Assembly: GCF_014334095.1 (NCBI RefSeq) | Contig: NZ_CP060495.1 | Span: forward strand, 271,001 to 335,000 | Direction of reading: 5' to 3' | Length of the DNA stretch: 64,000 bases | Origin: Novosphingopyxis iocasae | GTDB taxonomy: Bacteria > Pseudomonadota > Alphaproteobacteria > Sphingomonadales > Sphingomonadaceae | The notes under the pieces: generated by a model | Database searches by the model: none | Told to the model about the DNA's origin: nothing | The model's input: only the letters and a program-made list of their open reading frames with translations | Made by a program: the position numbers and the translations under genes | Part shown: one piece after another, positions 21,563 through 55,707 of the stretch | How the letters are laid out: every line of letters starts with the position of its first letter | Numbering within the stretch: the first letter of the stretch is position 1

Positions 21563-23026
21563 ATGGGGGGGAAGGTTTGGCCGGTAGGCGGGCGCACCGC
21601 GCTGCTGCTGTTTGCATTCGTCTGGATAAGCTGCGGCTATTTCGGTTCCTGGGCCTTTAATCCCAACAACACCACCCGCCTGTTCGCAGCGGTATCGCTC
21701 GTTGAAGAAGGCGATGCGACAATCGACCAATATGCGGAACTCGCATCGGATCATGCGAAGTTCGGCGATCATTATTACACCGACAAGGCGCCCGGCATGA
21801 CGCTGATGGCGGTACCGGCAGTCTGGTTATTGGATCGGATCACGGATGACGAGGCGATGTTTCATTCGCCGAGCCTGGGGGACCGGGGCTTTGTTGATTA
21901 TGTGGTGCTGCGCGTCTGGCTTTCCGCTTTTCTATCGTCAGGGCTGCTCGTCGCGCTTGGCGCTGTCGCACTCTATTGGACGGGCATTTCGCTGACGGGC
22001 AATCGCGGCGCTGCCATGTTCGGGGCGCTGTCCTATGCCGTTGCCACGCCCACCTGGGGCTGGGCCACCACCATATTTGGCCATGCCGCAGTGGGCGCGC
22101 TGCTGCTGATCGGTCTGGCGGGACTGCGCTATATTGCGGTGAGCGGCCCCGATCAGGGGGTAAGGCCCGGGCGGCTCTTCACGGCAGCGGCAATTGCCGC
22201 CTTCGCGCTCGGCTGGGCGCTGGTGGTCGAGCATCAGTCCGTTTTCGGCGTGCTGGCACTGCTGCTCTATGGCCTGTGGGAGGCGCGCAGACTTCCGGTC
22301 GCGCTCAGGCTTAAGCTGCTGGGCGTGGGCGTGGCCGCGGGTCTCGCCGCGTTGGCCCCGCTCGTCATCTACAACCTCATCGCCTTCGGGACGCCGTTCA
22401 AGGTAGGCTATGAGGGCGTGGAAGGGTTCGAAGGGATGCAGCAGGGTGTGATGGGGCTGACTTATCCCAAAGCCCATGTGATGTACGAAATCCTGTTCGG
22501 TGAGCGCCGCGGTATCCTCTGGCTTTCGCCTTTGCTCGTGCTCGCTCCGGTGGGTCTGTTCCGCATGATCGGCCGGGAGAATTTACGGGCCGCCGGCTGG
22601 CTGGCCATCGCGGGCACGGCCATCTATTTCCTGCTGAACGCAGCTTATGTGTACTGGACCGGTGGCAACAGCACCGGGCCCCGTCATGCAATGCCCGCCA
22701 TGGCTTTTCTTGGGCTTGGCTTGACCGGATACTGGGCGCTGTGTCGCGGCCTCTTCTGGAAGACGCTGGGCGCAGCGCTGTTCGCCGTCAGCGCCATTAT
22801 CGCCTCGATGATCGCCGCCGCCAATGTCACCGCTTATGAAGGCGAAACGCAGGCGCTGAAGGTGGAGGTCTGGCAGCGTTTCATCGAAGGCAATATCCGC
22901 ACCGTGCCGATGGAGTGGTTCGACTGGGCCTGGATCCCATCGCTCACTCTCTATTGGGCGTTTGCGGGCGTTATGGCGCTGTTGATCTGGCTTTCGCTGC
23001 GCCGGGATGCCAAGGCGACCGCCTGA
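21563..23026 (+). CDS. polytopic membrane protein, possible GT-C glycosyltransferase
   Basis: A 487-residue protein with about ten to twelve membrane helices. After the first helix comes [25 protein letters not shown] and then [18 protein letters not shown]. This layout (an acidic first loop, then a Tyr/Asp/Lys loop before a helix) resembles polyprenyl-phosphate-sugar glycosyltransferases of the GT-C fold, but I see no decisive motif. A later loop, [15 protein letters not shown], is also of the kind seen in such proteins. It is probably co-transcribed with the lipoprotein before and argS after (20-base gap). Function is uncertain. Confidence 0.75.
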
Positions 23027-30938: not shown

Positions 30939-31189
30939 CCCAGCGGCGCGAGAATGTTCAGCGCTTGCAGATCGGCGTTCTCGGTCTGGTCGCGGTCATT
31001 CTGCTCGTCGGGCTGGCGGGGATCGCCAATGACCGCGCGAGCAACGAGGTGCCGGTGACCGAAGAGATCGCGGAAACCGGCTCTCCTGTTGCGGAGGCGG
31101 CCCCTAAAACCGAAGCGCCGAAGGAGCCGCTCGCTGAACTCGGGGCCGTTCCTGCGCCGGAGGAGACCTCCGTGGCCAAAGCGAAGTAG
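30935..31189 (+). CDS. small single-span membrane protein, unknown
   Basis: An 84-residue protein: 12 polar residues, one membrane helix (IGVLGLVAVILLVGLAGIA), and an acidic Glu/Pro/Ala-rich tail. The GTG start overlaps the cysK stop by four bases, and a lipoprotein gene follows after four bases, so it is likely a real operon member. I do not recognise the family. Confidence 0.65.
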   Translation: MTQRRENVQRLQIGVLGLVAVILLVGLAGIANDRASNEVPVTEEIAETGSPVAEAAPKTEAPKEPLAELGAVPAPEETSVAKAK

Positions 31190-31193
31190 ATTC

Positions 31194-31943
31194 GTGTCCA
31201 TACGGTCGCTCGCCACGGCGTTTGGCGCGATTCTCATGCTGGCAGCGTGCGCCGCGGGAAAGCCGACAGGGCCGCGCAGCGATCTGATGCTGATGACCAG
31301 CCTGCCGCTACGCAGTGGAGAGGCGTCTATTCAGGAGCAACTGAGCGGAGGTGGTTCACCTGCACCTGCCTATGTCGATCTGCAGAGAAACTATGACATC
31401 CGGACGCTGGACGATCTGGACGTGTTGAAACCGGAGGGTGCCAGAAGTGCCCCCACCGGCATTCTGCTGCTCGCACAGCCAAGGGCGCTCGATCCGGCGG
31501 AACTGGTGGCGCTGGACGGTTGGCTGAGGGCAGGGGGCAAGGCGCTGATCCTCGCCGATCCCGCTTTGCATTGGGAGAGCCGCTATCCGATCGGCGATGC
31601 ACGCCGGCCATTGTTCACCTCGCTTCTGTCTCCGCTTTTTTCCCATTGGGGCATAGAGCTGGTGATGCCGATGGACCGAACCGGTCAGGCACCGGCGCTG
31701 GACGTGCGGGGAGAGCGGATCGAGACCCGGTCGCCTGGGGCCTTTGCAGCGCTGGCGGATGTCCCCGACCCCGCGGCGAAATGCGCGATCGACGCCTCCA
31801 GGCTGATTGCCGACTGCGCTGTCGGCAAGGGCAGGGCGCTGCTGCTGGCGGACGCCGATGTACTGCAACCGGGCCTGTGGAGGCGCGAGGGTAATGGCGC
31901 GCTGATCACAGGGCTTCTCGCCGAACTCGGTGGTGCTGAGTGA
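31194..31943 (+). CDS. lipoprotein with a GldG-like (ABC-transport auxiliary) domain
   Basis: A 249-residue protein with a signal peptide ending LMLAAC (lipobox). The body has GILLLAQPRALDPAELVALDGWLRAGGKALILADPALHW and a following strand, the fold pattern of the periplasmic GldG/DUF4350-type domain associated with some ABC transporters. Two Cys (KCAID and ADCAVG) lie near the C-terminus. The GTG at 31194 starts the signal peptide. No ABC permease or ATPase lies nearby, so it may be an orphan. It ends just before the MraZ-box region. Confidence 0.7.
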   Translation: MSIRSLATAFGAILMLAACAAGKPTGPRSDLMLMTSLPLRSGEASIQEQLSGGGSPAPAYVDLQRNYDIRTLDDLDVLKPEGARSAPTGILLLAQPRALDPAELVALDGWLRAGGKALILADPALHWESRYPIGDARRPLFTSLLSPLFSHWGIELVMPMDRTGQAPALDVRGERIETRSPGAFAALADVPDPAAKCAIDASRLIADCAVGKGRALLLADADVLQPGLWRREGNGALITGLLAELGGAE

Positions 31944-31956
31944 CGAGCCGGCATCT

Positions 31957-32013
31957 TGGGCGCGTTCTGGGAAATTCTGGGGCGACCGGGGATTCTGCGG
32001 GTGAAAATGTGGG
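31957..32013 (+). promoter_or_regulatory. MraZ-box-like array, TGGG-type repeats
   Basis: On the plus strand TGGG at 31957, 31968 and 31978, GGGG at 31988, CGGG at 31998 and TGGG at 32010 recur at 11, 10, 10, 10 and 12 bases. MraZ of E. coli binds TGGGN direct repeats with five-base spacers. This set begins 14 bases after the upstream gene. Confidence 0.6.
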
Positions 32014-32111
32014 TCTGATGCTGCAAATCCGGAACAGAAAAAGAACCTTCGGCCCATGCGACTGACGCCGAGAAAGTGAAAGCCTAGGATTTCCGCGCGC
32101 CCCCCGGACAA

Positions 32112-32168
32112 TCCCATGGATATCCCCAAAATTCCCTTGTTGTCCCATGAAATCCCATGCTATGCCCG
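32112..32168 (-). promoter_or_regulatory. MraZ-box-like array, TGGG-type repeats on the opposite strand
   Basis: CCCA or CCCN begins at 32113, 32124, 32134, 32144, 32154 and 32165, steps of 11, 10, 10, 10 and 11. Read on the minus strand these are TGGGN repeats, three of them ATGGGA. The array ends about 107 bases before the mraZ start and is the more likely operator for the dcw promoter. Between the two arrays (32014-32111) I see no other structure; from 32169 to 32274 only the leader. Confidence 0.7.
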
Positions 32169-32274
32169 TGGGCAATCGGGGTGTCTGCTTTGCCGTTGCA
32201 AAGACCGACGTCGGAATTGCTGAATTCCGGCGCGGGACGCGTATTGCCCCGCGAAGAAAGGGGTTCGGCAAATC

Positions 32275-32766
32275 GTGGCAGGGGGGTTCGTATATGGCGG
32301 CTCGGGCCTGTCGACGATCGACGGCAAGGGCCGGTGCACGATCCCGTCCGAGCTGCGCTCGACCGTGGAAAGCAGCAGCGGCGGCAACGTCGTCTGCCTC
32401 GCCCGCCACCCTGAATTACCCTGCCTGATGGGCTTCGGCACCACCGAGCGGGACCGTCTTGCAACCGATCTGGACAAGCAATGGGACTATGCGCAGCAGC
32501 GCGGCGAACAGTTCGACCGGCAGGCCGCCGGCGGACCGATCGCGTCCTCGCTGATGGAAGTGGGCTTCGAGGCGAGTGGCCGCTTCGTCATGCCGCCGAT
32601 GCTGCGCTTCTTCGGCAAGCTGGACGGCCAGGCCTTTTTTCACGGCAACATCACGAATTTTTACATCTGGAACCCGTCGATCCTCATGGAACAGCAGACG
32701 GGCTTCGAAATGCAGAAGGAAATCGCGGAATATTTCCTGAGCGAAGCCGAGAGGAAGCGCAAATGA
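32275..32766 (+). CDS. mraZ: transcriptional regulator MraZ
   Basis: A 163-residue protein with two SpoVT/AbrB-like MraZ repeats, seen as [16 protein letters not shown] and [15 protein letters not shown], which together form a ring that binds direct repeats. It is the first gene of the dcw cluster and usually represses it. The GTG at 32275, with AAAGGGG about 11 bases upstream, gives a fitting N-terminus. Its stop overlaps the rsmH start by three bases. The two arrays upstream are its probable targets. Confidence 0.93.
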
Positions 32767-33713
32767 GCGCGCCCGAGGCTCCTCACATTCCCGTCCTTCT
32801 CGAAGAGGTCGTCCACGCCGCCGCCATCACCCCTGGCGCGCGCATCGTGGACGGCACATTCGGCGCCGGCGGCTATAGCTCCGCCTTCCTGGCCCAGGGG
32901 GCGAACGTTTATGCGTTCGATCGCGACCCCTCGGCAATCGCGCAGGGCGCCGGACTGGCGGGCGGGAGCAAGGGGCGTCTGCGCCTCTTCCCCGCCCGCT
33001 TTTCAGACATGGCTTCCATATTGGCGGCCGAAGGCATCGAGGCGGTGGACGCCGTGGTGCTCGACATCGGTGTTTCCTCAATGCAGCTGGACGAGGCGGC
33101 GAGGGGCTTTTCCTTCCGCGCCGATGGTCCGCTCGACATGCGCATGGGGCAGGACGGCCCGAGCGCCGCCGACTTCCTGAATGAAGCGGATGAGGAAGAA
33201 ATTGCCGACGTCATTTATCTCTATGGCGAAGAACGCCGCTCGCGCCGGATCGCCAAGGCCATTGTCGCCGCGCGTCCGCTGACGCGCACCGGTGAGCTGG
33301 CGGCGATCGTGCGCAAGGCGCTCGGCCACCGCGAAGGCATGCCGAAGGATCCGGCGACCCGCACTTTTCAGGCCATTCGCATCCATGTGAACGCGGAACT
33401 GGACGAGCTGCGCGAAGGCCTGGCCGCCGCGGAAAAGCTGCTGCGCCCCGGCGGCCGGCTGGTCGTGGTCAGTTTCCACAGTCTGGAGGACCGGATCGTA
33501 AAACAGTTCCTGCGCGTGCGCAGCGGGCAAGCGGGCGGTGGATCACGCCATCTGCCGCTCCAGGATAGCGGCCCGGCGCCCAGTTTCGCCCGTCCATCGA
33601 AGGCGATCCGTGCGGGCGAGGACGAGCTCGACCGAAATCCGCGCGCCCGTTCGGCGGTGCTGCGCTGGGCGGAGCGGACCGACGCTTCGCCGTGGCAGGA
33701 GCAGGCGGCATGA
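32763..33713 (+). CDS. rsmH: 16S rRNA (cytosine(1402)-N(4))-methyltransferase
   Basis: A 316-residue SAM-dependent methyltransferase acting on the ribosome decoding site. [10 protein letters not shown], the SAM motif [46 protein letters not shown] and [16 protein letters not shown] are all present. It lies second in the dcw cluster and overlaps mraZ by four and ftsL by four bases. Confidence 0.97.
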
Positions 33714-54205: not shown

Positions 54206-54257
54206 CTCCGCGCGCTGCATGCGTCACTCCGCGCTTGCTACCGCTTTCAGCGGACGT

Positions 54258-54452
54258 CGCTACGGGAGAGCACCGGCCATCACGGCCCGGTCACCGAAGG
54301 AGCAACCGCCCCGGAATCTCTCAGGTCAGTCGGACCGTAGCGATGGATCAGGCACTCTGGAAAGCGCGCGCTCCTTATGGAGCTCGCCACCGAAGGGGTA
54401 AGCGTGGACAGGCAAAGGCCGCCCGCGAAAGCTCTCAGGTTCCGTGACAGAG
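54258..54452 (+). promoter_or_regulatory. tandem glycine riboswitch upstream of gcvT
   Basis: Two glycine aptamers lie in tandem in the 311-base gap before gcvT. Aptamer 1 has P1 arms CGCTACGG (54258-54265) and CCGTAGCG (54335-54342). Aptamer 2 has P1 arms CTCTG (54355-54359) and CAGAG (54448-54452). The conserved blocks recur in both: CACCGAAGGAGCAA (54292-54305) and CACCGAAGGGGTAA (54388-54401), then ATCTCTCAGGT (54316-54326) and GCTCTCAGGT (54431-54440). It would turn on glycine cleavage when glycine is high. The linker between aptamers is only about a dozen bases. Confidence 0.93.
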
Positions 54453-54516
54453 GGGGTAGGTGGATGCGCCGTCATCGGCGATCCGTCTGCATTCGACCCC
54501 TTGGAAGGAGCCGGCG

Positions 54517-55707
54517 ATGAGTGAAGAACTGGACGATATCGAACAGCCCGAAGAGCCGCAGACGCTGCCGCTCGATGCCTGGCATCGCGCCGCGGGCGGG
54601 CGGATGGTGCCGTTCGCCGGTTATCACATGCCGGTGCAATATGAAGGGATCATGGCCGAACATCTGTGGACGCGTGAGCGCGCCGGATTGTTCGACGTCA
54701 GCCATATGGGGCAGGTGCTTCTGACCGGCGAGGACGTGGCGGGCGCGCTCGAAAAGCTGTTGCCCGGCGATCTGCACGGCCTGAAGGCGGGCCGCATGCG
54801 CTACTCGCTGCTGCTGGCCGAAGATGGCGGCATCCTGGACGATCTGATGGTCACCCGGCTGCCTTCCGCCGAGGCGTTCGGCGGCGAAGAGGGCGACAGC
54901 GAATCGAATGGCGGCGAGGCCTTTTACATCGTCGTCAACGGCGCGGTGAAATATGACGATATCGGCTTCATGCGCGAGCATCTGCCCGATGAGGTGACGA
55001 TCAATCATCTGGAAGATCACGCGTTGCTGGCGCTGCAGGGCCCGGCTGCCGGCGAGGCGCTGGCGGAAATCCTGAGCGGCACCGATCAGCTGTATTTCAT
55101 GCAAGCAGCTGCGTTCGACTGGGATAGCGTGCCGCTATGGATCAGCCGCTCGGGCTATACCGGCGAGGACGGGTTCGAAATCAGCCTGCCCGCGAGCGAA
55201 GCCGAGCGCTTCGCTTCGGCGCTGACGGCGCTGGACCAGGTGAAACCTGTCGGTCTCGGCGCGCGCGATTCGCTGCGGCTTGAGGCGGGTTTGCCGCTTT
55301 ACGGCCACGACCTGACGCCCGAGACCACGCCGATGGCGGGCGATCTTGGTTTTGCGCTGTCCAAGCGGCGGCGCGAAGAAGGCGGCTTCCACGGCGCGGA
55401 ACGGGTGCTTGGCGAGCATCGCGACGGCCCCGCCACCAAGCGCGTCGGAATTCGCGTCGAAGGGCGCCAGCCGGTGCGCGAGGGCGCCGAGGTGGTGGAC
55501 GCAGACGGCGCGGTCGTCGGTCATGTAACCAGCGGCGGCCATGCCCCGACGCTCGGAACGCCGATCGCGATGGCTATGGTGCCCGCGGCGCTGGCGGAGC
55601 CGGAAACGCGCATCATTATTCGCCAGCGCGGCAAGGATTTCACGGGCACGGTTGCCAAAATGCCCTTCGTCCCCCAGCGCTATCGCCGACCATCGAAAGG
55701 GAGCTGA
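54517..55707 (+). CDS. gcvT: glycine cleavage system T protein (aminomethyltransferase)
   Basis: A 396-residue tetrahydrofolate enzyme that transfers the methylene group from the H protein. [61 protein letters not shown] and [21 protein letters not shown] are typical. The ATG at 54517 follows GGAAGGAG by six bases. First gene of the riboswitch-controlled gcvT-gcvH unit; gcvPA/PB follow after a REP-like gap. Confidence 0.97.

Follow-up and report, generated by a model that had tools for sequence, protein, structure and literature searches.

The region described here is the beginning of the dcw cluster of Novosphingopyxis iocasae, contained in a stretch of 64 kb that was analyzed as a whole (the window from here on). 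Its first gene is mraZ, placed directly before rsmH and overlapping it at position 32763, which is the situation expected for a member of the MraZ family. The intergenic region upstream of mraZ contains two arrays of short G runs that point towards each other. The one farthest from mraZ (distal array) has its GGG units on the sense strand, while the one closest to it (proximal array) has them on the opposite strand (Table 1). In both, the units follow each other in steps of ~9–12 bases. The gap between the arrays (32013 to 32113) is 99 bases long, or 86 if an extra C run next to the proximal array is counted.

Table 1. Genes and sequence features around the start of the dcw cluster in the window (positions in the window).
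Feature	Position	Strand	Description
Upstream co-directional gene	31089..31943	+	Similarity to ABC_transp_aux / DUF4350; start uncertain
Distal array	31958..32013	+	Six GGG units, sense; starts 14 bases past the upstream stop codon; auxiliary MraZ operator (proposed)
Distal G runs	31958-31960, 31969-31971, 31979-31982, 31988-31991, 31999-32001, 32011-32013	+	
Spacer	32014..32099	.	Proposed loop or wrap DNA between the arrays
Candidate seventh proximal unit (C run)	32100..32105	-	Possible
Proximal array	32113..32167	-	Six GGG units; proposed main MraZ operator
Proximal C runs (minus-strand GGG)	32113-32115, 32124-32127, 32134-32136, 32144-32146, 32154-32156, 32165-32167	-	
Candidate mraZ promoter	32137..32166	+	TTGTTG (32137-32142), 18-base spacer, TATGCC (32161-32166); inside the proximal array
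mraZ	32275..32766	+	Heads the dcw cluster; encodes a divergent MraZ; assumed GTG start
rsmH (mraW)	32763..33713	+	Overlaps the end of mraZ

The initial annotation had described six units on the plus strand facing six on the minus strand before the dcw cluster, and this is confirmed by the coordinates, by shuffling and by the rarity of such arrays along the genome. Allowing steps of 9–12 bases, the only GGG chains of at least four units in the 64 kb are the distal array (six units) and one of five units at 22414, and the sole CCC chain of at least four is the proximal array, which by this rule has seven. In 60 shuffles of the window, chains of four and of five units appeared on average 0.82 and 0.12 times per shuffle, and chains of six never did. 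When the 331-base intergenic region was shuffled 20,000 times, a six-unit chain never appeared on either strand, nor did chains of at least four units ever appear on both. The exact pattern GGG-N7-GGG-N7-GGG-N7-GGG has three matches in the 3.19 Mb genome, two of which correspond to the distal and the proximal array and are oppositely oriented. Isolated pairs of units are not uncommon, with 17 matches of the looser two-unit pattern GGGAWWTNNNNGGG in the genome. What characterizes an MraZ-box operator, i.e., at least three direct repeats with a GGG core, ~10 bp apart and upstream of mraZ, is thus found at this locus. The third exact four-unit array of the genome is located at G000:C1:2917669-2917701 (plus strand). 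The five-unit chain at 22414 (plus strand) is inside a long ORF (21563-23026) and is probably due to chance or to coding. The segment 31500-33700 had no match in the plasmid collection, and the sole Rfam match along the 64 kb was a glycine riboswitch far from the arrays (RF00504, 60.7 bits, 54253-54347, plus strand). It precedes an ORF (54460-55707) that we take to be the T protein of glycine cleavage, which would be an ordinary arrangement.

The MraZ encoded in the window falls below all the curated cut-offs (TIGR00242, 33.2 vs. 98.35; NF001477, 48.8 vs. 162; PF02381, 20.7 vs. 23). The TIGR00242 cut-off was passed by none of 143 genomes of the class, although 128 of them match the model, and therefore this threshold shuts out the whole branch and does not define the family. 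The signature of MraZ is a pair of DxxxR motifs. The first copy is DGKGR in the window protein and the second is EASGR, with E replacing D, and the residues K18, R20, G102 and R103 are invariant across 37 sequences. A structure model obtained from an alignment of 37 sequences had a pLDDT of 94, and the predicted fold was that of MraZ in each of the first 16 PDB matches (best E 2.6e-10). Two of these entries are, by their titles, MraZ on promoter DNA (9r4j, promoter; 9sz7, 4-box promoter). Both correspond to Mycoplasma genitalium and, again by title, share with our case the MraZ fold and an operator of tandem boxes, but they name one promoter array and make no mention of an opposed pair. In Mollicutes the MraZ boxes are repeats of AAAGTG[T/G], according to the available portion of one report (PMC8475190).

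The comparison with relatives covered 160 of the 241 genomes of the family (Sphingomonadaceae) with a match, 120 in a first set and 40 in a later one. The later genomes came from the better-scoring rows among the matches listed and represent mostly genera already present in the first set. Since the genera are shared, the later set has to be taken as a replication within the same clades and not as an independent sample. From the class, 70 of the 128 genomes with a match were examined, one of them belonging to the same family. Rows L001 and L032 (duplicates of G000 and G001) and G082 (with no upstream sequence) were dropped. The proximal array is widespread: 96/120 genomes of the first set and 36/40 of the later one have a CCC chain of at least three units no farther than 300 bp from mraZ; the 28 genomes out of 160 without it were excluded from the phase counts. 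The same type of antisense array was found before mraZ in 49 of the 69 Alphaproteobacteria of other families. A promoter matching TTGA[CA]-N16-19-TAT was located in or beside the array in 34 of these 49, compared to none in 350 control windows. Within the family this strict form is kept in only two of 132 genomes (0/800 control windows) and consequently the place of the promoter rests partly on analogy; a looser form appeared in 19/132 genomes vs. 23/800 control windows. In the window, the candidate sequence is TTGTTG-N18-TATGCC, weak by the E. coli consensus and rejected by a generic promoter scan, and its position is the one suggested by the other Alphaproteobacteria; transcription is expected to begin near 32173. 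By the same analogy, the proximal array most likely covers the mraZ promoter in antisense. It is located ~108–162 bases before the gene, and does not have the sense orientation beside the start that is found in E. coli. We propose that it is an old MraZ-type operator, i.e., the ancestral site of autorepression, with MraZ as its putative binder.

The distal array has a much narrower distribution. We defined a strict distal pair as GGG[AG]WWW-N3-4-GGG upstream of the proximal array, and this was present in 51/96 genomes of the first set and 28/36 of the later one, i.e., in 79 of the 132 family genomes that have a proximal array. Over the distal interval of the first 120 genomes, there were 108 matches in 55 genomes on the sense strand against four in three genomes on the other; the equivalent figures for the stretch further upstream, used as control, were 11 matches in seven genomes vs. 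three in two. In the later set, the other strand had the pair in only one of the 36. Among the 49 genomes of other families with a proximal array none had the pair on the sense strand, and three had it on the other strand. A GGG chain of at least three units was found in the distal interval of two of these genomes (G315 and G331), and a CCC chain also in two. Judging from this sequence comparison, the distal opposed array is a trait of the family. The search for the same pair in other sphingomonads, suggested in the initial annotation, gave therefore a positive answer in those 79 genomes. The accompanying expectation that the pair would be kept in relatives holds only in part, as it is absent from the only other genome of the genus in the collection (G001).

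This genome is probably that of Novosphingopyxis baekryungensis, the one locus retrieved by scanning genome contigs with the window MraZ (88% identical). The intergenic region of G001 can be aligned and contains a proximal array of four units; in the aligned stretch the distal array is missing and the G runs are broken. Since the closest of the other genera (G136, G191) has distal arrays, a loss is favored over a new gain. Altogether, 53 of the 132 family genomes have a proximal array without the strict distal pair. When mapped on a tree built from 59 MraZ proteins, the distal label required seven changes, vs. 14.2 when shuffled, and 13 of the 16 rows with the strict label were found in one clade of 16 rows. 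The label is actually too strict, since G136 and G232 (proximal chain of less than three units) and G187 (looser pair) were counted as lacking the array. Four genomes (G025, G109, G169 and G215; L241, L240, L237 and L239) had no detected mraZ, and no GGG or CCC array was found before their rsmH on either strand. All belong to a single genus of the family, whose genomes are ca. 2 Mb in size. The missing arrays fit with MraZ being the user of these sites, although this is a single lineage with visibly AT-rich DNA. In genus g94, mraZ likewise went undetected in G094 and G205. Three CCC units nevertheless stand in a chain at -697 to -677 from rsmH in G205, and G094 carries three GGG units in a chain near -1075 and two CCC units at -703 and -692. 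These chains are perhaps next to an mraZ that is too divergent to be found.

The two arrays are also related through their helical phase. Distances between the ends of G runs in the distal interval peak at 10, 20–22, 30–33, 41–43, 52–53 and 62–63 bases, so that the distal units keep a phase of 10.5 bp even across gaps. Beyond 12 bases, the periodogram has a peak of 20.3 at 10.5 bp, where the upstream control reaches only 1.6 (the control has its own maximum, 8.9 at 11.7, and also an excess at 10 bases). The same applies from one array to the other. Measured between the first proximal unit and the nearest distal pair, distances cluster around 99, 110, 121, 131, 142, 153 and 163 bp, which means that they change by whole turns of the helix. 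The Rayleigh R at 10.5 bp was 0.74 (n = 51), and it remained at 0.72 when each sequence cluster contributed a single genome (n = 46) and at 0.64 when only distinct distances were counted (n = 26). With the same scoring rules, the later set gave R = 0.81 (n = 28) and a phase of 5.7 bp, compared to the 5.3 predicted from the first set. The nominal p-values, between 1e-8 and 1e-13, take no account of kinship among the genomes, which makes them too small. Among the 64 trinucleotides, GGG was the most phased to the proximal array over the 50–200 bp upstream (nR2 of 165.7, median 5.0), followed by TTT, GGA, CGG and ATT (89–62), all of which occur in the unit, and the scan of periods had its maximum at 10.5. 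The value for GGG dropped to 4.6 in the other Alphaproteobacteria and to 6.4 in the 53 family genomes without the strict pair. The inter-array phase of the window is 7.4 bp when calculated over all unit pairs, vs. 8.5 in the other 78 genomes, where nearest pairs were used. The two arrays are therefore at integral-turn spacing, as in pairs of operators that form loops. If the contacts are centered on the TGGG core, as the same-face reading assumes, phase arithmetic puts both arrays on the same side of the DNA within roughly 35–70 degrees.

In many relatives there is another element beside the proximal array. The consensus for IHF is WATCAANNNNTTR, and a site resembling it starts 22 bases before the first proximal unit (-22), with an A-rich stretch 9–13 bases before it. 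Exact matches were found in 9/96 family genomes (0.3 in shuffles), matches with up to one mismatch in 28/96 (5.1 in shuffles; 4/96 on the other strand), 18 of them exactly at -22, and matches with up to two mismatches in 56/96 (35.3 in shuffles). Considering positions -24 to -20 and up to two mismatches, the site accompanies the proximal array in 48 of the 79 genomes with the distal pair vs. 12 of the 53 without it (Fisher p 1.7e-5, kinship uncorrected). A gene for IHF-alpha scored above cut-off in the six genomes searched, including that of the window. However, the stretch in the window has no match to the consensus within two mismatches (the best has three), and the pair of arrays is independent of the IHF-like site, because here it is found without it. 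A palindrome (TAAAT-N4-6-ATTTA) before the proximal array looked striking in single genomes; it was found in 7/132 only and the IHF-like reading was preferred.

To explain these observations we lean, with modest confidence, towards considering both arrays as MraZ operators that are bound jointly in one repression complex, looped or wrapped. MraZ at the proximal array would cover the mraZ promoter, giving autorepression, and the distal array would act as an auxiliary operator situated at a near-integral number of DNA turns. MraZ oligomers sitting on both arrays would face approximately the same side and could join, with the 86–99 bases of DNA between them in the window looped or wrapped. The promoter within the proximal array would then be shut more tightly than by one array, strengthening the repression of the division operon. 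The IHF-like bend beside the proximal array may assist in many relatives, and the window would do without it. A wrap along one face with no free loop would give the same phasing and is included in this reading. The initial annotation had mentioned that facing arrays might allow MraZ rings to form a loop, and to this extent the comparison with relatives backs it: the arrays resemble MraZ boxes and the distance between them follows the turns of the helix, which a loop or joint complex would require. What the sequences show is the arrays with their motif, orientation, spread and helical phasing; the binder, the joining of the arrays and the tighter repression are what we infer. Going one step further, with odds slightly short of even, in Sphingomonadaceae the MraZ oligomers on opposed and phased arrays, often beside an IHF bend, might lock the promoter of the division operon in a closed micro-loop. 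In the boldest form, one ring would clamp both arrays. The E. coli MraZ ring has twelve subunits, and the 6 + 6 units of the window would fill a ring of this size.

The two arrays could also be independent MraZ operators that never come together in a joint complex. The proximal one would shut the promoter, and the distal one would raise the local amount of MraZ, block read-through from the upstream gene or serve a second, unseen promoter. We see this as unlikely, albeit with some arguments behind it. The distal array begins just 14 bases past the stop of the upstream gene, and lone proximal arrays are common, both in the family (53/132) and outside it, where the 49 Alphaproteobacteria all lack the forward distal pair. 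However, arrays acting separately would not keep the helical phase between them. As for the second promoter, an action on two promoters had been suggested before and found no backing here: the generic scan of 31500-32500 detected no promoter-like site, a weak test that misses the proximal promoter too.

It is less probable still that the distal array is the target of another protein, either a nucleoid protein or some other regulator. The distal consensus is certainly more uniform, the second GGG being preceded by C in 78% of 105 distal units vs. 31% of 535 proximal ones, and there are IHF-like sites nearby in the relatives. On the other hand, the distal array has the same GGG core and the same 10–11 step as the proximal, and the second GGG is followed by A in 70% of the distal and 69% of the proximal units. 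This last likeness is not forced by the search pattern, which does impose what follows the first GGG (the A and an A/T-rich spacer). Besides, arrays of four units hardly occur elsewhere in the genome, and those four genomes with no detected mraZ have no arrays before rsmH.

We give very little weight to the G runs acting as G-quadruplexes in DNA or RNA. Such a structure has been reported at the mraZ promoter region of Staphylococcus aureus, and similar motifs are said to be conserved at mraZ across bacteria, in the available portion of that article (PMC11796246). The distal array of the window contains four tracts separated by loops of 7, 5 and 7 bases (31969-32001) and, because it fits the motif, this explanation has been retained among the alternatives. 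Scoring the distal regions, a four-tract motif was found in 17 of 79 and was absent from the other 62, and a phase that spans gaps and opposed strands is not expected from G-quadruplexes, for which reasons it was rejected as the main explanation. Equally hard to believe is that the distal array is a decaying relic with no function in N. iocasae: it is indeed missing from the sister species, with broken G runs in the alignment, but in the window six units are in phase and form the joint-longest distal chain of the first 120 genomes (six, together with G238).

The arrangement shares features with several known systems. The MraZ operator of E. coli, reportedly the subject of Eraso et al. 2014, is said to consist of direct repeats with a GGG core ~10 bp apart upstream of mraZ, and MraZ is said to repress its own expression. 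In the E. coli sequence we found one array, sense-oriented, at -42 to -11. The repeats, their step and their place upstream of mraZ are shared with N. iocasae, but here the array at the promoter lies farther up and in antisense, and a second one, opposed and phased, has been added. The other Alphaproteobacteria have a single antisense array with the same orientation and place over the promoter, and none of the 49 has the forward distal pair. The E. coli layout is therefore not general, since the alphaproteobacterial operator lies antisense over the promoter. The lac, gal and lambda CI systems combine a main operator at the promoter with an auxiliary operator at integral-turn spacing. The present pair is similar in its spacing, and differs in being made of multi-unit arrays, in the AbrB-like, ring-forming nature of the protein and in that the loop is predicted. 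The paired array is real, is present in much of the family and is a new arrangement of a known operator. A partial literature search, most subscription journals being outside it, turned up nothing on a second MraZ array opposed to the first, and novelty is to that extent unproven. MraZ, encoded at the start of the division operon, is a widely conserved protein, and distances between arrays that vary in whole-turn steps make the bridging of two DNA segments by MraZ directly testable.

Finally, the leader is another point in which these loci can be compared. In Rhodobacter sphaeroides an extended mraZ leader of 268 nt, with UpsM and a terminator, has been described (PMC5089854). The dcw promoter is there, likewise, well upstream of mraZ, the leader predicted for N. 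iocasae being shorter (~100 nt), and the available portion of that text does not discuss an MraZ array. The leader region of the family also contains an element of its own, CCATCGGACA, found with up to one mismatch in 56/132 family genomes, vs. 2/132 in a control stretch and 0/49 among the other Alphaproteobacteria. It appears at ~+59 from the first proximal CCC (for example in L016, L030 and L031), close to the expected transcription start, and in 40 of the 56 genomes the distance is exactly +59.
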